Below the pieces are notes generated by a model. It had not been told where the DNA came from. It saw only the letters and a list, made by a program, of their open reading frames with translations, and did no database searches. DNA of 47,747 nucleotides from Paludibacteraceae bacterium (lineage in GTDB: Bacteria; Bacteroidota; Bacteroidia; Bacteroidales; Paludibacteraceae): NCBI GenBank assembly GCA_017444065.1, contig JAFSXJ010000012.1:1-47747 (forward strand), given 5' to 3'. Shown in pieces: positions 9,097 to 18,448 of this stretch. The position numbers and the translations under genes are program-made. How positions within the stretch are numbered: position 1 is the stretch's first letter; each line of letters starts with the position of its first letter.

Positions 9097-10536
9097 ATGA
9101 ACGTGCGCGCATATATCTTTTTCCTGACTTGCCTCCCGATGATGGTGGCATGCAATCACGGCAACACACCTGCACAGCCGACCATCGACTCCAATCCGGA
9201 GTTGGTGGCCGCCTGCAGGCATATAGAGGGTGGCGGAGCTGCTGTCACCGGCGGTGACGGCGGAGCTGTCTATCGCGTCAACCGTCTCGACGATGTCACC
9301 GACCCCAATACAGGGCTTCCTCTGGCAGGCACACTCCGATACGCCGTCAATCAGACTGGCGCAAGACGCGTCATCTTCACCGTCTCAGGAACCATCCACC
9401 TTAATAGCGAACTGCGAATCAAGACCGGCAGCATCACTATTGACGGACAATCAGCACCCGGGGATGGAATATGTATCGCCGACTACCCGCTCGTCATCAA
9501 CGGAGCCAGCAACGTCATCATCCGTTTCATCCGCGTTCGCCTCGGCGATGTGAGCAATACCGAATCTGACGCAGTCTCGGTCAACAACGCCACGGGTGTG
9601 GTGCTCGACCACCTCAGTTGCTCCTGGTCGGTGGATGAATGTGTCAGTTGTTACGGCAACACCGGTTTCACCATGCAGTACTGCATGGTCTCCGAGTCAC
9701 TCAAGGAGTCCGTCCATGGCAAAGGCAGTCACGGCTACGGAGGTATATGGGGCGGCACAAACGCCTCCTTCCACCACAACCTGCTCGCGCACCACGACAG
9801 CCGTAACCCGCGTTTCGACCATGACTATGTCAACAGCGTCAACGCCGGTCCTATCGACTTTGTCAATAATGTGGTCTATAACTGGGGTAGTAACTCCGCC
9901 TACGGTGGTGAAGGATCCACCAAAGGGGCAGGCGGACGTCACATCAATTTTGTCAACAACTACTTCAAACCCGGCCCGGCGACCAAATCAAGCGTCAACA
10001 CACGGCTTGTGGATCCGTGGACTTCCTGTTCCAACTGTGCGGACCACCCGGGAGGCACTGTCGTAGCACCTAAGATTTATCTCACCGGCAATTACATGCA
10101 GGGCTCGTCCGATGTGACAGCCGATAACTGGAAAGGCTCCTCCAAATCGAAAAGCATAGCCGGTACGGATGTTCGTTGGACGGACAATCTCACCGCGCTG
10201 GTGAACGAGCAGACGGCAGAAGCTGCCTGTGAGACCGTACTCGCCAAAGCCGGCTGCTCGCTGCACCGCGATGCCATTGACACACGCATCGTCAACGAGG
10301 TACGCAATACTACCGGCAAACTCATCAATACGCAATCCGAGGTAGGCGGTTGGCCCGAACTACAATCGGCAGACAAGCCCACCGACACCGACTACGACGG
10401 CATACCCGATGAATGGGAAACCACATTCGGACTCAGTCCCAATGACCCGCTTGACGCCCGTGCTATCACACTCGTCACCGGATTTACAAACATCGAAGTG
10501 TACATGCGTCATTTGGTACGCAATTTGTATGACTGA
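9097..10536 (+). CDS. PL1-family pectate lyase, lipoprotein
   Basis: Cleaves de-esterified homogalacturonan by beta-elimination with calcium. The 479-residue product has a lipoprotein signal (MMVACN, Cys19) and a right-handed parallel beta-helix. Family marks are the substrate-site strand DHLSCSWSVDE (the usual vWiDH region), GYGGIWGG, HHNLLAHHDSRNPR with the likely catalytic Arg, and a C-terminal DTDYDGIPDEWE segment. That last segment is a calcium-binding thrombospondin type 3-like motif often found at the end of these Bacteroidota lyases. No acidic export signal follows the Cys, so a periplasmic or inner-leaflet location is inferred. It directly follows susD by 3 bases. Confidence 0.88.
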   Translation: MNVRAYIFFLTCLPMMVACNHGNTPAQPTIDSNPELVAACRHIEGGGAAVTGGDGGAVYRVNRLDDVTDPNTGLPLAGTLRYAVNQTGARRVIFTVSGTIHLNSELRIKTGSITIDGQSAPGDGICIADYPLVINGASNVIIRFIRVRLGDVSNTESDAVSVNNATGVVLDHLSCSWSVDECVSCYGNTGFTMQYCMVSESLKESVHGKGSHGYGGIWGGTNASFHHNLLAHHDSRNPRFDHDYVNSVNAGPIDFVNNVVYNWGSNSAYGGEGSTKGAGGRHINFVNNYFKPGPATKSSVNTRLVDPWTSCSNCADHPGGTVVAPKIYLTGNYMQGSSDVTADNWKGSSKSKSIAGTDVRWTDNLTALVNEQTAEAACETVLAKAGCSLHRDAIDTRIVNEVRNTTGKLINTQSEVGGWPELQSADKPTDTDYDGIPDEWETTFGLSPNDPLDARAITLVTGFTNIEVYMRHLVRNLYD

Positions 10537-10557
10537 TAGAAAAAAGCAAAACACACT

Positions 10558-12057
10558 ATGACTCGCAAGTTCATTATCGCCGTTTTGGCGCTCGTCAGCA
10601 CACTCGCCATGGCGCAAACCAAGTATTCGCACTATTACACGAACTTGCCCTGCGCGGTAGAGCAGGTGCAGGAAGTGCATATCCCTGATTACACCGTGAC
10701 GCTCACCGACTTCAATGCCGTAGGAGACGGACAAACGGATTGTTCCGAAGCATTCGCTGCCGCCATCAAGCACCTCAAGAAGCAAGGCGGAGGACACCTC
10801 ATCGTGCCCGACGGCAAGTGGCTCACAGGACCCATCAAACTCATCAGCAATTTTGACCTCCATCTCGCGGACAATGCTACCATCATCTTCTCAACCAACA
10901 AGGAGTTGTACGTGCAGCCTTCCGACACCCTGCGCGACGGCAGCAAGAAATGCTACGCACTCGTACACGGCTCCAAGCTCGAGAACGTGGCCATCACCGG
11001 TCACGGCACACTCGACGGACAAGGCATCTACTGGCGCCCCGTGAAGCAGAAGAAGGTGAACGAAGATATATGGAACACCCTCTTGGAGATGGGAGGTAAA
11101 GTCACAGCGGACGGTAACAGCAAGAACTGGAAAATATGGTACCCGTTCAACCTCAACAAGGACCTGAATATCCCCAACATCGCATCGGACGCTGTCACTC
11201 AGGAGAAGATGCGTCCGCACCTGGTGAACATCACCGACTCCAAGAACGTTCTCATTGAGCACGTACACCTGCTCAACTCGCCTAAGTTCCATCTGGTACC
11301 CACACGCATACAGAACCTCATCATCGACGGCGTCAATATCCGCTGCCCGCACTGGGCACAGAACGGCGACGCCATGGACCCGGGTAATATACAGGTGGCA
11401 CTCATCGTCAATTGTAACATCTCCTGCGGCGACGACGGCATATGTATGAAAGGCGGCGTGGGACAGAAAGGTGTGGACGCCGGTCCGCAACGCGACTTCC
11501 TCATCTGCAATGATACCGTCTATCGCGCACACGGCGGATTCGTCATCGGCTCGGAGTTCAGCGGCGGTATGCAGCGGCTTGTTGTCAAGGATTGCCGCTT
11601 CGAAGGCACAGACATCGGGTGCCGCTTCAAATCGGCTCCGGGACGTGGCGGATGGTGCGAGGATATCTACTGCTATGATATCATCATGAAGGATATCATC
11701 GAATCCGCTTTCCTCATCCAGTCAGGCTATGCCGACCGCGGAGCAGGAGTCAGCGCAACCGACAAGGATAACAAGGATGCCTTCTTCCCTGACTGGTCGA
11801 ACATCACCTTCCGCAACATCACCTGCATCGGCTCCAAGCAAGCCGTGGACATCCAAGGGCTCAAGGGTAAACCCGTTCACGACGTCGTCTTTGACCAGAT
11901 AACAATCATTGGTAACAAAAGCGGTGTAAAAATGGAATGGGCGGAGAACATCAAGTTCATCAATTGTAACATCAACCCCAAGCCGATGCCGATAACGGAC
12001 TACAAGAAGATCAAAAACGTTTTGTATAACGGCAAAGACCCCGATGCCGCAGAATAA
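10558..12057 (+). CDS. GH28 polygalacturonase, probably exo-acting
   Basis: Hydrolyses alpha-1,4-galacturonan. The 499-residue product has a signal peptidase I type leader (cleavage near AMAQ) and a right-handed beta-helix. The GH28 catalytic signatures are present: NGDAMDPG near residue 269 (N-x-D), CGDDGICMKGG near 288 (paired Asp), AHGGFV near 324 and CRFKSAPGRGG near 355 (R-x-K). The KGGVGQKG stretch after the paired Asp and the long N-terminal WLTGPIKL region resemble exo-polygalacturonases, which release monomers or dimers; this is inference. It has no sorting tail and no lipobox, so it is probably soluble in the periplasm. The next GH28 gene starts 37 bases later. Confidence 0.9.
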   Translation: MTRKFIIAVLALVSTLAMAQTKYSHYYTNLPCAVEQVQEVHIPDYTVTLTDFNAVGDGQTDCSEAFAAAIKHLKKQGGGHLIVPDGKWLTGPIKLISNFDLHLADNATIIFSTNKELYVQPSDTLRDGSKKCYALVHGSKLENVAITGHGTLDGQGIYWRPVKQKKVNEDIWNTLLEMGGKVTADGNSKNWKIWYPFNLNKDLNIPNIASDAVTQEKMRPHLVNITDSKNVLIEHVHLLNSPKFHLVPTRIQNLIIDGVNIRCPHWAQNGDAMDPGNIQVALIVNCNISCGDDGICMKGGVGQKGVDAGPQRDFLICNDTVYRAHGGFVIGSEFSGGMQRLVVKDCRFEGTDIGCRFKSAPGRGGWCEDIYCYDIIMKDIIESAFLIQSGYADRGAGVSATDKDNKDAFFPDWSNITFRNITCIGSKQAVDIQGLKGKPVHDVVFDQITIIGNKSGVKMEWAENIKFINCNINPKPMPITDYKKIKNVLYNGKDPDAAE

Positions 12058-12094
12058 AATAACCGGATTTCTGACTTCTGAAAAACTGAGTTCT

Positions 12095-13642
12095 ATGAAT
12101 AAGTTCCTTTCTCTCATCTGCCTGGTGCTCGTCCTTACCGCCTGCGCCGGCAAACCGGAGTATCAGACTACCCGTCAGGCGGACATCGACCGCCTGACCC
12201 GCTCGGCATCGTTCGATATGCCGCGCGTTCAACTCCCGCAGTTCCCCGACCGCACCTTCAATGTCTTGGATTTCGGAGCTGACCCTACGGGTATTGTTCC
12301 CTCTACTGAGGCTATTCAGCAAGCAATCGATGATTGTACTGCCAAAGGTGGCGGCACGGTCGTTATCCCTGAAGGGATATACACCACAGGACCTGTCACT
12401 CTCAAGTCCAACGTCAGATTGTATACCGAGCCTAATTGTTTCGTGCTCTTCAGCCACGACCGCGACTTGTATGACATTCTGGACATCTGGTTCGAAGGCA
12501 TACCTACCAAGCGGTGCACCAGCCCGCTCAACGCCCAGAACGCTGAGAATATAGCCATCACCGGTCATGGCACCTTCAACGGCAACGGTGACTGGTGGCG
12601 GCCTGTCAAGAAAGCCAAGATGACAGATGCACAGTGGAAAAAACATATCAAGGAGAAAGGCGGCATCGTAACGGAAAAGAACATCTGGTATCCGGATTCG
12701 GGGTCGGTTATTGCGCAGACCTACTGCCTCGACCAGAACGTCCCCGTCATCACCGATGAGGCACTCTGGCCGCAAGTCAAGTCGTTCCTCCGTCCGGTAT
12801 TGCTGCACTTCGTGGGCTGTCGTAACATCCTGCTTGAGGGAGTAACCTTCGAGAACTCACCCGCGTGGAATATCCATCCCCTCGGCTGCGAGAATCTCAT
12901 AGTAAACAACCTCACTATCCGCAACCCCTGGTACAGCCAGAACGGTGACGGCATCGATGTGGAATCCTGTAAGAACGTAGTAATCGCCAACTCATCCTTC
13001 GACGTGGGCGACGATGCCATCTGCATGAAGTCCGGCAAGGACAAACCCGGACGCGACCGTGGCATCCCCACCGAAAACGTCGTTGTGGACAACTGCGTGG
13101 TCTATCATGGGCATGGCGGCTTTGTCTGCGGCTCGGAGATGTCCGGTGGAATAAAGAACGTCGAGGTACGCAGCAACCTGTATATCGGCACCGATGTCGG
13201 ACTGCGCTTCAAATCGACCCGCGGACGAGGCGGTGTGGTGGAGAACATCTTCATCCGTGATGTCAACATGGTCAACATCCCCAACGAAGGACTGCTGTTC
13301 GACCTCTTCTATGGTGGGAAGGGAGCCGGCGAAGAAACCGAAGAGGAGATTGCTGCACGCATGAATGCCGAAGCACCCGCCGTGAGCGAAGAGACACCTG
13401 CTTTCCGGAATATCGTTATTGAGAATGTCACGGGATGCAACATCCAGCGCGCCATCTATTTCAACGGCCTGCCGGAGATGAAGATTCAGAACGTGACACT
13501 CCGCGACATCGTCATCACCTCCAACTATGGCGCACTCTTCCGCCAGACGGACGGACTGACTATCCAGAATGTACGCATCTCACCAACCGAAGGCGAAGCT
13601 TTCACCTTTGCCCCATCCGTTGAGAATGTCAAGTTCGACTAA
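12095..13642 (+). CDS. GH28 polygalacturonase (second copy), lipoprotein
   Basis: A second GH28 in the same operon, 515 residues from the start chosen here. An ATG at 12044 is open in frame but overlaps the previous gene; the ATG at 12095 gives a clean lipoprotein signal (VLTACA, Cys17). Catalytic marks: NGDGIDVES near residue 283, GDDAICMKSGKDKPGRD near 305, GHGGFVCGSE near 341 and LRFKSTRGRGG near 371. The KSGKDxxGR segment is typical of exo-type GH28 enzymes. An acidic insert (GEETEEEIAARMNAEA) interrupts the C-terminal helix turns. It shares its core with the preceding GH28 but differs in leader and insert, so the pair probably splits substrates such as plain and substituted oligomers. 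Confidence 0.9.
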   Translation: MNKFLSLICLVLVLTACAGKPEYQTTRQADIDRLTRSASFDMPRVQLPQFPDRTFNVLDFGADPTGIVPSTEAIQQAIDDCTAKGGGTVVIPEGIYTTGPVTLKSNVRLYTEPNCFVLFSHDRDLYDILDIWFEGIPTKRCTSPLNAQNAENIAITGHGTFNGNGDWWRPVKKAKMTDAQWKKHIKEKGGIVTEKNIWYPDSGSVIAQTYCLDQNVPVITDEALWPQVKSFLRPVLLHFVGCRNILLEGVTFENSPAWNIHPLGCENLIVNNLTIRNPWYSQNGDGIDVESCKNVVIANSSFDVGDDAICMKSGKDKPGRDRGIPTENVVVDNCVVYHGHGGFVCGSEMSGGIKNVEVRSNLYIGTDVGLRFKSTRGRGGVVENIFIRDVNMVNIPNEGLLFDLFYGGKGAGEETEEEIAARMNAEAPAVSEETPAFRNIVIENVTGCNIQRAIYFNGLPEMKIQNVTLRDIVITSNYGALFRQTDGLTIQNVRISPTEGEAFTFAPSVENVKFD

Positions 13643-13726
13643 TCTAACAGCGCAGCGATCTATCAGTGAAACGGTCTAACAGGCGATTCATCGCCGGTCT
13701 AACAGTTGCGATAGCAACGATCCTGC
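13641..13726 (+). repeat. Array of 9-mer GGTCTAACA words with 7- or 14-nt spacers
   Basis: Reading from 13641: AATCTAACA, 7 nt, GATCTATCA, 7 nt, GGTCTAACA, 14 nt, GGTCTAACA, 14 nt, GATCCTGCA. Both 14-nt spacers are small hairpins (GGCGA-ttca-TCGCC and GTTGC-gata-GCAAC). The array begins at the stop codon of the GH28 gene, contains the GTG start of the next gene and encodes much of its signal peptide. Confidence 0.8.
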
Positions 13727-14823
13727 AAGGCTGTGCCCCGCGAGTAGCCACCTCATTCTGGCGCATCGGCACACCGGACGACTCAACTCGCGCAGGTTAT
13801 GCCATCTTGCACGAAGGCAAGAAAGTACGCCATTGCTATCCCGTCACGGAGTGGACTGACACAGCCAACAGTCAACGACCAACGGCCAATGGCAAGAATG
13901 ATACCTATCATTCGTTCCATCATCACGGCGTCGCTGTGGAGAGCGAACTGATGGCATACCGCATCTATTTCGACAAGAAGCAGACCATTGACATCTATTG
14001 CAAGCGCACACCACGCATGGAGTTGGCTACCTCGTACTGGTACCCAAACGATAGCCTGCTCGCCCTTGACTACGGCGATGATATACTCCGTGTATCAGGT
14101 ACAGTCGGCCTCGGCTCTGTCAAGTACTGGAACGGAAAGAAGCACGTACATATCGAACCCGTTGCCGAACGCTCGGAGCGTATTGTCCGTCGGTCGCGTA
14201 ACAAAGCCACTGTCGAAGTGGCGGTCAAAGACTGGCAGACGGAAGGCAAAAGCGTCGATATGTCTGTGCAATATACCCTTTGTGCCGGACATCGCGATAT
14301 GCGCTGCGACGTCACCCTCTCCGAGCCTGTCAACGGACTCTGCACCGGCGTACAGTCCATTCCCGCGACAAATGCAACTGTTGAATATCTAACAGGCGAA
14401 GCCGATCTGTCAACGAAGTGGTCTGTCAGTGAAGCGGTCCGACAGCACAGCTATTGGCTGTGCGATCAGCTAACAAACGGAGTCTTGTTAGCAAGTTGGG
14501 GTACGGACTGGCCCGTCAATGACACGGTCAAGTATGCCAAAGAGACGGTTGGTCTGGCGGTGTTCATCCCGAAAGAATATGCCGGCGAGCTGGTGCAGGA
14601 CAAGTCCAACAACCTCTGCCTGCTCCATCTAACTGGCTCTAAAAGAGCTGGTCTAACAGAGAATCGGTCCGACAGCGCAGCGGTCCAACAGCCCGATGGG
14701 CGGTTTTATCGCTGTCATTTCTACCTCACCTGTATCGGTGCTACCAAGGAGATACATCCTGTTGCCACCAATGCGGACGAGTGGCTCGCCTACCTCCGCC
14801 GCTGGGCTGCTCAACTGAAATAA
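13666..14823 (+). CDS. DUF4861-family lipoprotein of pectin loci
   Basis: Recognised as DUF4861 from the segments HHHGVAVESELMAYRIYFDKK, shortened to its core SELMAYRIYFDKK, then LALDYGDDILRVSGTVGLGS, and LLASWGTDWPVND. The family is regularly found beside pectin or ulvan-type uronate enzymes; I do not know a proven reaction and do not assign one. The 385-residue product starts at a GTG and has a lipoprotein signal (TILQGC, Cys23). Much of that signal, and two further stretches around residues 240-270 and 325-345, are encoded by periodic 9-mer/7-nt DNA words (separate entries). Between them the sequence looks like a normal family member, so the gene seems to tolerate these insertions. It is the last gene of the first operon; the next forward gene has its own promoter 160-200 bases away. 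Confidence 0.75.
   Translation: MKRSNRRFIAGLTVAIATILQGCAPRVATSFWRIGTPDDSTRAGYAILHEGKKVRHCYPVTEWTDTANSQRPTANGKNDTYHSFHHHGVAVESELMAYRIYFDKKQTIDIYCKRTPRMELATSYWYPNDSLLALDYGDDILRVSGTVGLGSVKYWNGKKHVHIEPVAERSERIVRRSRNKATVEVAVKDWQTEGKSVDMSVQYTLCAGHRDMRCDVTLSEPVNGLCTGVQSIPATNATVEYLTGEADLSTKWSVSEAVRQHSYWLCDQLTNGVLLASWGTDWPVNDTVKYAKETVGLAVFIPKEYAGELVQDKSNNLCLLHLTGSKRAGLTENRSDSAAVQQPDGRFYRCHFYLTCIGATKEIHPVATNADEWLAYLRRWAAQLK
14385..14480 (+). repeat. Second 9-mer word array inside the DUF4861 gene
   Basis: Words ATCTAACA, GATCTGTCA, GGTCTGTCA and GGTCCGACA follow one another with spacers of 9, 7 and 7 nt. Then comes a 19-nt hairpin spacer (GCACAGC-tattg-GCTGTGC) and GATCAGCTA. The same unit as the array at the gene start, here fully inside the reading frame. 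Confidence 0.75.
14629..14703 (+). repeat. Third 9-mer word array inside the DUF4861 gene
   Basis: Words ATCTAACT, GGTCTAACA, GGTCCGACA and GGTCCAACA with spacers of about 15 (hairpin GGCTCT-aa-AAGAGC region), 7 and 7 nt, ending in a small hairpin GCCC-gat-GGGC. It encodes a Ser/Arg/Ala-rich stretch of the lipoprotein. Confidence 0.75.
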
Positions 14824-15925: not shown

Positions 15926-15959
15926 ACTCTAAACACTAAACTATAAACACTAAACTCTA
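15926..15959. repeat. TAAACACTAAACT micro-repeat
   Basis: CTAAACACTAAACTATAAAC and the following ACTAAACTC form an imperfect tandem of the word AAACACTAAACT directly behind the regulator's stop codon. One of several short word families dispersed in this window. Confidence 0.6.
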
Positions 15960-18404
15960 TCCTTCCCTGTACTCCGTAGGAGTCTTGCCGGTATTGGCCT
16001 TGAATGATTTGGAGAAGTAACGAGGGTCGCTGAAGCCGCAGGCATAGGCGACCTCTTTGGTTGCCATATCGGTTGACCGCAACAGGTTGCATGCGTGCTT
16101 GATACGTGCTGCCTGTACAAAGTCCTTGGCCGACAGGTTGAACAACTCGTGCATCTTCCTGTTCAGCGACGAACGGCTCATGCAGGTCACCTTGGCGATG
16201 TCGTCTATCGACATGTTGTTGTCGCCTATATGCTGCTCCATGAACACGTGCAGTGTATTCAGGAACTTCTCATTCTCGCTCGTGTATCCGGGTGCCAGAA
16301 TCTCCGGTACAGGTAGCGGCTCGGGCTGCTGACTGTCGGCTACCGGCTGCCTACCGGCTGACGGCTGATTGCTGATGAGCAGATACCGCTCCTGCAAGCC
16401 AAGATAGGCCTCCAGCGTCTCTGCCCGTTGCTTGCGGTGGTAGTGTACGCGCGTGGATTGGATGGTGATAGCGATGGCTATCAGTAGCAGCAATCCGATC
16501 TGTAGTACCCAGCCGGTCGTACTCTCCCAGAACGTGGGTGTCACAGTTATATTCAACCTCCGCGTGTTGTCTTGCCAATGCCCATAGACATTGGTCGAAC
16601 GCACCTCAAACACATACTCTCCCGGATGCAGGTTGGCCAGAACGATGGCATTGGTTTTGGTGGGTGCATCCCACGGATGACCTTCGTCGCCACGTTCAAA
16701 GAAGCGTGTCGAGTAGAGCACTGTACCCGTGCTGCGGTAGTCAAGGGCCGAGTAGATCAGAATAAGGTCGCGCTCATCCGGAGCAAGCGTAATCTGTTGC
16801 AAGCCGTCCACGGCATAGTCGGGCTTCTTGTCGCTGCGACGAATCATGTTCAGCGCTATGCGGATAGATTCATTCTGATGCTTGAGCTCCGATTTGTCCA
16901 GCACCAGCATTCCCGATGCAGGTGCAATCAGCACTCGCCCGCCAGGCAATCCCAACGGAGGAACCTCGCCTAATATCAACTTGCCGTCCGTGCTGCTGCC
17001 GAAGAACGTGCGCCCGTAATTACATATCTTCTGCGCACCTTCGCCCTTGTTCATGGTAACATTGACCACAGTCAACGCAGTATTCCCTTGCAGCAGCAGT
17101 TCGTTGTCCGACCACGGAGCTATCTCATGGACTATATCTGTTTCCAAGCCGTCGCTCATCGTCAGGTTTTCCCATTGCACCTTTTCTGCATGCAGGTCAG
17201 TACCTGTCATCCTGTTGATACCGCCGCCTTCCGTACCCACGTACAACCGGCCTTGGTGCATACAGAGGCACATCACGGCGTTGCTGCTGAGCGAGTGCGG
17301 GTCATTCGCTTCACGCTGATGCCACCTTATACCTTTGGCATCCAGCACCATCAGTCCCGAAGTCGTGGCAGCCAGAACCGTACCGTCATCCGTGACAAGC
17401 AGACGACGGATAAACTTCTTCTCCGTCCCGGGAACGATGGTGAATGCCGGCTGCTGATCGCTCACAGCCGATTGCTGACTCACCCACAATCCGAACCCGT
17501 AGGTGGCTACCCACAACCGGCCGTCTTTATCCTCTTTGATATCGTACGCATTGCGCACTTCGGCATAAGTCTGTACTCTGTCAGGCGGCAGGCCGGTCTG
17601 TGCTCTGTATTCAATCATACACCCAGGTTTGCATCCCAGGAAGATGCGGCCGTCCTTGGTCTCATATACCGAATAAACCATGTTCCCGAAATCTACCGGC
17701 TGCTGGTGAAGTTGACCTACGCTGTCCATATAGCCGCGCAGGTTAAGAGCACTGTCATACACCATCAGCTGCTGCGTGTTGCGAACCGCTGCCCATATAT
17801 CGCCGTTGCTCATGCGGTGCATGCAACGGATCTCTTCGCGGTTGATGCGCTTTCCGTGTGAAACGAGTGGTGTTGCCACATACAGGCCATGATCGTTGAT
17901 CAGCCACAGATTGTCCTGCCTGTCCCTGAACTCTGACCAGATATTGCGCATCTGCAGGTCACCATATCGGCTGATCTTCTCTTTCGGACGCGCGTAGTCG
18001 GGATTGAACGGACGCTGCATCACTTCCTGAGCGGCATACTCTATTTCCGTGGGGAGCGTATCAAAGGTACAGGTACGGGTGTCAAACAGGAATATACGGT
18101 CATCAATGAGGCAGAGCAGGTTGTTGTTCTCTGTCAGGCGCATGCGGCGTATGCGGTCGCCGTGTATGGGCATGCCGTCACCCAGTTCGGGCTTGAACGT
18201 CACAAAACTGTTGCCGTCGAAGCGGTTCAATCCGTTCCACGAGGCAACCCATATCATTCCTGAACTGTCCTGTATGGTCTGAGTCAGATGCCAATGACTC
18301 AACCCGTCGTGGTCGTCATAGAAGTGCAGGGAGTAATCCTCTGCATGAATGCCGGTGCAGACAACGAGTATAAATAGGAGTATAGTATATATGCTATGCT
18401 TCAT
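15957..18404 (-). CDS. Membrane-bound propeller sensor / AraC regulator lacking kinase and receiver
   Basis: Probable pectin-responsive transcription regulator. From the ATG at 18404 it has 815 residues. An upstream in-frame ATG at 18446 is possible, but this start gives the better signal peptide (MKHSIYTILLFILVVCTGIHA). Then comes a large periplasmic region of Reg_prop propeller repeats (for example DSSGMIWVASWNGLNRFDG, KDGRLWVATYGFGLWVS) and a Y_Y_Y domain (HPGEYVFEVRSTNVYGHW). One membrane helix follows at about residues 630-652 (VLQIGLLLLIAIAITI), then a short charged linker, and a C-terminal AraC DNA-binding domain (about 707-815, MSIDDIAKVTCMSRSSLNRK and GFSDPRYFSKSFK). A normal hybrid two-component sensor has HisKA, HATPase and receiver domains between the helix and AraC; none is present. 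Two short word repeats lie in a propeller loop and in the linker. It sits between the two pectin operons. Confidence 0.88.
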   Translation of the reverse strand: MKHSIYTILLFILVVCTGIHAEDYSLHFYDDHDGLSHWHLTQTIQDSSGMIWVASWNGLNRFDGNSFVTFKPELGDGMPIHGDRIRRMRLTENNNLLCLIDDRIFLFDTRTCTFDTLPTEIEYAAQEVMQRPFNPDYARPKEKISRYGDLQMRNIWSEFRDRQDNLWLINDHGLYVATPLVSHGKRINREEIRCMHRMSNGDIWAAVRNTQQLMVYDSALNLRGYMDSVGQLHQQPVDFGNMVYSVYETKDGRIFLGCKPGCMIEYRAQTGLPPDRVQTYAEVRNAYDIKEDKDGRLWVATYGFGLWVSQQSAVSDQQPAFTIVPGTEKKFIRRLLVTDDGTVLAATTSGLMVLDAKGIRWHQREANDPHSLSSNAVMCLCMHQGRLYVGTEGGGINRMTGTDLHAEKVQWENLTMSDGLETDIVHEIAPWSDNELLLQGNTALTVVNVTMNKGEGAQKICNYGRTFFGSSTDGKLILGEVPPLGLPGGRVLIAPASGMLVLDKSELKHQNESIRIALNMIRRSDKKPDYAVDGLQQITLAPDERDLILIYSALDYRSTGTVLYSTRFFERGDEGHPWDAPTKTNAIVLANLHPGEYVFEVRSTNVYGHWQDNTRRLNITVTPTFWESTTGWVLQIGLLLLIAIAITIQSTRVHYHRKQRAETLEAYLGLQERYLLISNQPSAGRQPVADSQQPEPLPVPEILAPGYTSENEKFLNTLHVFMEQHIGDNNMSIDDIAKVTCMSRSSLNRKMHELFNLSAKDFVQAARIKHACNLLRSTDMATKEVAYACGFSDPRYFSKSFKANTGKTPTEYREG
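16326..16379 (-). repeat. CGGCTGACGGCTGATTGC-type word repeat in the regulator linker
   Basis: Iterated words built from CTACCGGCTG, CTGACTG and CTGATTGCTGA encode the linker ISNQPSAGRQPVADSQQPEP between the membrane-proximal helix and the AraC domain. A related stretch at 17446-17484 (CCGGCTGCTGATCG, CCGATTGCTGACTC) encodes a propeller loop. Confidence 0.65.
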
Positions 18405-18448
18405 GCTTGGTGATATATTATGGTGTCCATGTCGCCTGTTGTCCATCT

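Follow-up and report, generated by a model that had tools for sequence, protein, structure and literature searches.

Hairpin-punctuated repeat arrays in genes and intergenic DNA of a Paludibacteraceae genus

In a stretch of 47,747 nucleotides from a Paludibacteraceae bacterium (contig JAFSXJ010000012.1, positions 1 to 47,747; hereafter, the window), the gene for a DUF4861 lipoprotein carries three arrays in which short, fairly constant linkers alternate with small hairpins of varying sequence. Here we found arrays of this kind throughout the genus, between genes as well as inside them. Their spacers follow a folding grammar that is independent of coding, those in genes are translated in frame, one array has lost whole units, and at protein loops the arrays turn over with other repeats. 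Our leading explanation, to which we give an even chance, is that they form a genus-wide repeat family that is copied and resized through folded single-stranded DNA (ssDNA) and that proteins have tolerated or co-opted; we infer the copying step itself.

The arrays of the DUF4861 gene and the folding rule of their spacers

The host gene (13666..14823, plus strand; 385 aa; PF16153, E 1.8e-56) contains 12 GGTCTAACA-like linkers in three clusters of four, in agreement with a sequence-only reading of the window that had reported about 12 such 9-mers in or at the start of this gene. The arrays, all on the plus strand, were delimited from the sequence and by scoring linker pairs against shuffles. Array 1 (13641..13722) has linkers starting at 13641, 13657, 13673, and 13696, with the spacers GCGCAGC (13650-13656), GTGAAAC (13666-13672), GGCGATTCATCGCC (13682-13695), and GTTGCGATAGCAAC (13705-13718), followed by GATC. 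Array 2 (14386..14467; linkers starting at 14386, 14404, 14420, and 14436) has GGCGAAGCC, ACGAAGT, GTGAAGC, and GCACAGCTATTGGCTGTGC, again followed by GATC, and array 3 (14626..14701; linkers starting at 14626, 14650, 14666, and 14682) has GGCTCTAAAAGAGCT, GAGAATC, GCGCAGC, and GCCCGATGGGC. The spacers had been described as mostly 7 nt long, which is true of six of the 12 (GCGCAGC, GTGAAAC, ACGAAGT, GTGAAGC, GAGAATC, and GCGCAGC again), the other six measuring 9-19 nt. Hairpins had been noticed only in the longer spacers, which do fold, but the 7-nt spacers were overlooked: these form 2 bp around a 3-nt loop, as in GC-GCA-GC, GT-GAA-AC, or GA-GAA-TC. All 12 spacers can form a hairpin, 10 of them with perfect Watson-Crick pairing and two (GTGAAGC and GGCTCTAAAAGAGCT) with one G-T wobble, and 11 of the 12 sequences are distinct. 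Between 13600 and 14720, nine linker-linker pairs enclose a stem-forming spacer, whereas 500 Markov shuffles gave 0.014 on average and never more than 1. Chance is excluded by these shuffles together with the unit-pair counts in the genome and the genus given below. At gathering scores, Rfam gave no match to a known RNA family in the window.

The folding rule was examined in 2.10 Mb of pooled loci. These were found by array patterns and include orthologues, which makes the counts non-independent and the sample non-random. Between consecutive linkers, spacers of 7 nt occurred 275 times, and those of 8, 9, 10, and 11 nt occurred 56, 15, 3, and 16 times, respectively; longer ones of 13, 14, 15, and 16 nt were found 2, 26, 14, and 6 times, and the reversed sequence gave 0-4 per length. 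There were 39 distinct spacers of 7 nt and 80 longer ones. When the 3' halves were redistributed among distinct spacers of equal length in 500 rounds, the observed number of stem pairs was reached in none for 7 nt (60 bp versus a dealt mean of 35.5), 8 nt (36 versus 23.4), and 14 nt (66 versus 27.2), and in 2, 4, 1, and 8 of 500 for 9, 11, 15, and 16 nt; 10 and 13 nt had too few spacers. Perfect stems with 3- or 4-nt loops account for 359 of the 413 pooled spacers, and the imperfect ones include tandem G-A mismatch stems (GC-GA-GC-AAA-GC-GA-GC and variants), wobbles, and true mismatches. Over 204 spacer instances, positions 2 and 6 were paired in 94% versus 67.5% expected and had the highest mutual information of the 21 position pairs.

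The triloops are GNA in 227 of 289 cases, with a C-G or T-A closing pair in 288 of 289, and the tetraloops are GNNA in 54 of 70, all 54 closed by C-G or T-A; the five CNNG loops are all closed by G-C. Over the 359 perfect stems, the closing pair is C-G in 272, T-A in 73, and another pair in 14. Both cGNNAg and gCNNGc have been selected by others as stable DNA tetraloops. These values agree with the design of stable DNA mini-hairpins, in which a GNA or GNNA loop with a C-G closing pair tops a stem of 2 bp or more. According to Hirao and colleagues, DNA mini-hairpins are extraordinarily stable when such a loop sits on two or more G-C pairs, and GCGAAGC has a melting temperature (Tm) of 78 C (PMC4686876). 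The d(GCGNAGC) and d(GCGNNAGC) mini-hairpins share the loop and stem grammar of most spacers, but are known as structural motifs and aptamer parts, whereas here they are the repeated, variable part of a genomic array. The hairpins are less free to differ than the sequence-only reading implied: the spacer sequences do vary, but within a folding rule, and the linker varies too. At locus L185, two closely similar arrays 2 kb apart (at about 9997 and 12056) differ by ATGTAAT versus GTGCAAC, with both bases of a stem pair altered and the loop altered as well.

Arrays between genes, inside genes and across the genus

With a simple purpose-written gene caller, 127 of 198 de-duplicated arrays lay in called genes and 71 between them, so that arrays in genes fall below the genes' own share of 80.5% coding sequence (a figure from the first version of the caller). 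The share of perfect stems was 86.8% in intergenic spacers (n = 151), 86.8% in sense spacers (n = 234), and 89.3% in antisense spacers (n = 28), and the three reading frames taken singly gave 84-89%. As stem perfection is equal in the three settings, the rule acts on nucleic acid and not on protein, and protein-level selection as the sole cause of the spacers is excluded.

The same data bear on the idea that these are ordinary variable-number repeats made by simple heptamer slippage, with hairpins as a by-product of ancestry and folding without a role. In favor of this idea, other species have pure heptamer tracts at these protein loops, the periods of 16 and 23 nt follow from linkers of 9 and 16 nt, and one locus (L173) contains a 107-nt tandem duplication. 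However, in intergenic arrays positions 2 and 6 are paired in 118 of 120 spacers against a dealt mean of 72 and a maximum of 87 over 2000 rounds, and slippage alone is not expected to yield stems of 2-6 bp with matched loops; we regard this explanation as unlikely. The duplication in L173 (genome G085) is intergenic and comprises a hairpin array plus its flank.

Arrays in genes are strongly oriented, with 107 in sense and 20 in antisense. This bias exceeds the sense to antisense ratio of open frames in intergenic arrays (63:43), which points to selection beyond the avoidance of stop codons, and the additional selected property is probably a hydrophilic sense peptide. The peptides of 85 sense arrays inside genes or at their ends are mostly rich in S, N, T, A, and K, in a frame-dependent manner. 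The sense bias could also be taken to mean that the arrays are RNA-level elements, that is, mRNA hairpins tuning translation, stability, or cotranslational folding, and more spacers are stable by RNA than by DNA folding parameters. But antisense and intergenic arrays are equally stem-perfect, and intergenic arrays have no preferred orientation relative to their neighboring genes (++ 26, -- 23). The RNA tetraloop rule is GNRA, and 34 of the 54 GNNA loops violate this generally known rule with a pyrimidine as third base. Protein composition would be the simpler account of the sense bias, and an RNA-level role seems to us the least probable of all the explanations considered here.

The source genome (2.42 Mb, 80.6% complete) contains 17 matches to the unit pair GGTCTAACAG-N6-GGTCTAACAG at up to three mismatches and none to the reversed pattern. 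The sequence-only reading had suggested looking for the 16-nt unit in relatives, and 65 of the 101 genomes sampled from the genus (Bacteroidales) did carry the pair, with a maximum of 221 matches in genome G024. In a family sample, it occurred in 21 of 35 genomes of the genus versus 5 of 165 outside it, where one of the weak matches (G132) is a genuine array with an ACGTAGT spacer. The core CAGCGNAGCGGTCT is present in 81 of the 101 genomes, at 0 to 178 copies per genome. In an order sample, it was found in 12 of 295 genomes, two belonging to this genus and the other 10 having one match each, with one match each in seven genomes for the reversed core. An exact scan of named genome contigs returned 79 stretches. 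In 78 the title reads Bacteroidales or Paludibacteraceae, and many of the titles name a ruminant host; the sole match from outside Bacteroidales, in Bradyrhizobium (L115), was presumed to be due to chance and was excluded from the pooled counts. As for carriage by phages, one exact 26-nt pattern had 0 matches in viral contigs, phage and plasmid records being unsearched.

What is enriched is the array and not the 9-mer, contrary to the expectation that the 9-mer itself would exceed chance across the genome. Allowing one mismatch, GGTCTAACA-type 9-mers number 12 in the window versus 8.2 expected, and 267 in the genome versus 724 for the reversal, while the unit pair is enriched; the signal therefore resides in the array pattern. 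The linker consists of GG and one or two heptamers (e.g., TCTAACA or TCTTTCA) and occurs in the variants GGTCTTACA, GGTCTATCA, and GGTCCTACA and a 16-nt form, GGTCTTTTCTCTTTCA; among the arrays listed, it has lengths of 9 and 16 nt (2+7n), with spacings of 16 and 23 nt. In the source genome, GGTCTTTTCTCTTTCA is a second linker form with the same hairpins and a 23-nt period, as if with one extra heptamer.

Alternatively, the constant linker could be where a DNA- or ssDNA-binding protein attaches to carry out a job that concerns the whole chromosome, such as replication restart, segregation, or uptake. The hairpin would zip up the spacer and set the linkers side by side, bringing spacers of 7-19 nt to one geometry, and a number of pattern matches as high as that of G024 would suit such a job. 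Nevertheless, a core count that ranges so widely within one genus, a variable linker, and site turnover would be odd for an essential site, and we consider this explanation very unlikely.

Turnover at protein loops and array-coded signal peptides

DUF4861 matches were found in 46 of the 101 genomes; the best 30 loci, including the window's own copy, were aligned, and 16 of these were compared as DNA. Orthologues without arrays that keep the same protein would have spoken against an element, but the residues that arrays 2 and 3 encode in the window are present in 0 of 29 aligned orthologues, and both arrays are replaced by shorter loops or other repeats. At the array 2 site, many orthologues have a short loop, others have heptamer tracts (e.g., L208, L217, L220, and L229), and L211 has a palindrome. 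At the array 3 site, the 15 orthologues compared as DNA mostly contain other insertions: L216, L217, L219, and L221 have hairpin arrays, L220, L227, L229, and L235 have heptamers, and L207 and L211 have CCCTTCCCTT-type palindromes. A conserved protein motif is excluded by this alignment and the DNA comparison. The nearest orthologue, L207 (77% identity), has a modified array 1 in common with the window, with different loops and one stem pair altered on both sides (GTTGC..GCAAC in the window, GTCGC..GCGAC in L207); array 1 is therefore partly inherited. The proposal of an element in place of a conserved motif thus stands for the family, in the genome and the genus, and for arrays 2 and 3, and needs this correction for array 1. 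In L207 and L211, CCCTTCCCTTNAGGGAGGGG-type palindromic elements occupy the same DUF4861 protein loops.

In a predicted structure of the fragment from window position 13735, arrays 2 and 3 fall largely in low-confidence residues (212-218, 221-237, and 304-315); the model is of modest quality, with a mean pLDDT of 66, and array-free stretches such as 89-125 are of low confidence as well. The gene also contains a tract of a related repeat class, the heptamer-type GCCAACAGTCAACGACCAACGGCCAATGGC (13864..13893, plus strand), recognized from its sequence and coding for ANSQRPTANG, residues that are different or lacking in the aligned orthologues.

Repeat turnover at orthologous sites was seen in further genes too. 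Over 185 site pairs, which are not independent, length differences are multiples of 3 in 102 of 127 cases in genes versus 1 of 10 between genes. Whole units can be lost: L122 lacks exactly 36 nt (16+20, two units) that are found in L135 and L100.

The first array was correctly recognized as supplying the GTG start and much of the lipoprotein signal. The start codon at 13666 lies inside array 1, which extends to codon 19 of the signal peptide MKRSNRRFIAGLTVAIATILQGC (13666..13734, plus strand), assigned by eye and having similar array-coded cores elsewhere. Of 22 N-terminal sense arrays, 17 appear by eye to code for a signal peptide with the similar core GLTAKRSNRLFIAGLTALAV, and its RLFIA stretch is coded by the hairpin GGCTATTTATAGCC. 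A search of 178 genomes of the genus for the DNA of this cassette gave 20 sites in 14 genomes, including a match inside array 1 at 13669-13705, and none for the reversed sequence. All 20 sites are at most 37 codons from a possible start and share one frame. The downstream proteins form at least 12 unrelated groups; 12 is the number by BLAST, a grouping that took in only the second of two neighboring genes at L270 and at L274 (the first gene of L270 was assigned by Pfam only). Ten representatives compared with Pfam match ten different families: SusD, DUF5715, Peripla_BP_2, DUF2490, Metallophos, Cthe_2159, Peptidase_S41, SusE/SusF, LIP, and 5_nucleotid_C. This one arrangement (KRSNR-LFIA-GLTALAV) appears to serve as a ready-made signal peptide and to have been reused in unrelated secreted proteins.

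In the window, the DUF4861 gene follows a pectate lyase gene and two GH28 genes (9097-13642), which lie immediately upstream; the second GH28 gene ends in a stop codon (13640-13642) whose last bases are also the first two of array 1. Downstream, on the minus strand, an open reading frame of 829 aa (15957-18446; sensor/AraC-type by eye) has SNQPSAGRQPVADSQQPEP and SQQSAVSDQQPA stretches resembling translated heptamer repeats.

Possible mechanisms and relation to known repeat systems

The constant linker, the sequence-free but fold-strict hairpins, the change by whole units, the many sites, and the lack of a visible partner gene in the two families tested would all be accounted for by copying through folded ssDNA, whether by slippage, template switching, or an ssDNA-handling enzyme. 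The hairpins would fold in the linker-bearing strand when it is single-stranded during replication or repair, and the machinery that copies it would stall there, slip, or jump to another template. Units could then be duplicated, lost, or copied between arrays, and only units that fold would keep being copied. Inside genes, arrays would persist where their S/N/T/A/K-rich sense translation is harmless, in loops, tails, and signal peptides. Heptamer repeats occupy the same sites and, among the arrays listed, have the same seven-base step; the arrays may have grown out of them.

Several observations weigh against this reading, in addition to the sampling of the pooled loci. Among the genomes compared, one per species, no copying event was seen. 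The GC-skew proxy for the strand is weak: of the intergenic arrays, 25 lie on the strand richer in G and 12 on the one richer in C, and for arrays in genes the numbers are 19 and 19. Over 33 distinct spacers, the mutual information of positions 3 and 6 (0.545) is slightly above that of positions 2 and 6 (0.536; paired in 70% versus 47% expected), and the excess at positions 1 and 7 is small (94% versus 88% expected, 204 instances). Sixty-two of the 289 triloops are not GNA (mostly ANA), and the GNA share is 71% in sense versus 88% in intergenic arrays. ViennaRNA, with DNA or RNA parameters, gives no stability to 2-bp spacers (GCGAAGC is unstructured, despite its published Tm of 78 C), and dG is at or below -1 in 14.3% of spacers with RNA versus 8.5% with DNA parameters. 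As these energies do not favor DNA over RNA, the case for DNA depends on the published melting data; the G-A mismatch stems and loops such as GCAA and CTTG would be suited to RNA too.

The sequence-only reading had envisaged a process that adds units, and a dedicated one is plausible. A bolder version, which we hold more tentatively than copying through folded ssDNA as such, is that the mini-hairpins are a physical code in ssDNA, read by some enzyme or replication pathway. This would write and trim arrays and carry them from gene to gene, as a self-spreading system with a continual output of protein linkers and exchangeable signal peptides.

The nearest known relative is a REP-like system. REP/BIME/REPIN elements with RAYT (TnpA-REP) are likewise, in the portions of the literature consulted (PMC3733652, PMC6006769), numerous short palindromes with a fixed tetranucleotide at the hairpin foot and proposed ssDNA processing; the arrays differ in their free hairpin sequence, constant linker, GGTC tag, and frequent location in genes, and several array-rich genomes need no RAYT. 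Accordingly, the arrays could be GGTC-tagged mini-palindromes that a RAYT/TnpA-REP-type HUH (Y1) transposase mobilizes as ssDNA hairpins. The many hairpin copies do have a fixed foot, and genomes with PF01797 are richer in array cores (median 12 versus 4, p 0.028, uncorrected). However, the foot is GGTC on the 3' side, with CA on the 5' side, and neither GTAG nor CGTC, and the palindrome is not conserved within the genome, as the distinct spacers of the window gene illustrate. PF01797 (E 0.001) matches 29 of the 101 incomplete genomes and was not found in the source genome (80.6% complete), G024 (178 cores, 94%), G014, or G026; 23 of the 39 genomes with at least 10 cores lack a match. No hairpin units of 7 or 8 nt flank the Y1 genes in the 11 loci examined (5.7-10.4 kb each, of 38 listed matches; the genomes are incomplete, and the strongest match, in G027 at L236, was unscanned). 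A Y1 transposase as a necessary partner is rejected on the basis of the array-rich, though incomplete, genomes without PF01797 and the 11 loci examined, and the mild association is kept as a lead; we judge this explanation quite unlikely. The array-rich species G044, G085, and G093 (L277-L279) each have a Y1-transposase-like protein of about 250 aa, apparently orthologous among the three, with no adjoining array. A reverse transcriptase as a necessary partner, as in DGR or retron systems, is likewise rejected: in these incomplete genomes, PF00078 matches 24 of the 101, but not the source genome, G024, or G014, and it is missing from 28 of the 39 that have 10 or more cores.

As the sequence-only reading had supposed, the design appears to be unnamed: among the matches listed, we found no description of a hairpin-punctuated array in the open-access literature. 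The closest systems are heptamer repeats, tagged palindromes, Rickettsia palindromic elements (RPE), and PARCEL, each with at least one defining feature that the arrays lack. Heptanucleotide repeats, to which the cyanobacterial STRR belong, are similar in their heptamer steps as far as the listed arrays show. In the sections consulted of a study of TAACTGA repeats and LSSR (PMC4679880), they also share some Bacteroidetes hosts and a variable array length, whereas our arrays are broken by mini-hairpins with covarying stems and are often in genes and translated; after one or two heptamers, a hairpin and GG intervene in place of an uninterrupted tandem of a single heptamer. RPE are, in what was consulted of PMC10969869, also in-frame repeats in unrelated genes, but are about 150 bp long with a conserved peptide, whereas the arrays consist of short modular units in variable number (mostly 16-25 nt) with no single peptide. 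PARCEL, as far as PMC2996958 was consulted, are dyad-symmetric intragenic repeats, membrane-targeted proteins included, but are defined by a 25-residue amphipathic protein repeat, unlike the mostly S/N/T/A/K-rich, frame-dependent peptides of the 85 sense arrays; the arrays conserve DNA folding and not one peptide.

From a biological perspective, the usual bacterial repeat families conserve sequence, whereas the family described here conserves a fold, with variable hairpins that obey the stability rules of ssDNA set on a constant linker. If our reading is true, each genome would hold a natural record of DNA folding, spread over tens to about 200 sites. Repeats of a non-coding type have been turned repeatedly into parts of proteins, predicted signal peptides included, so that the origin of new linkers and secretion signals can be traced across 178 genomes of one genus.

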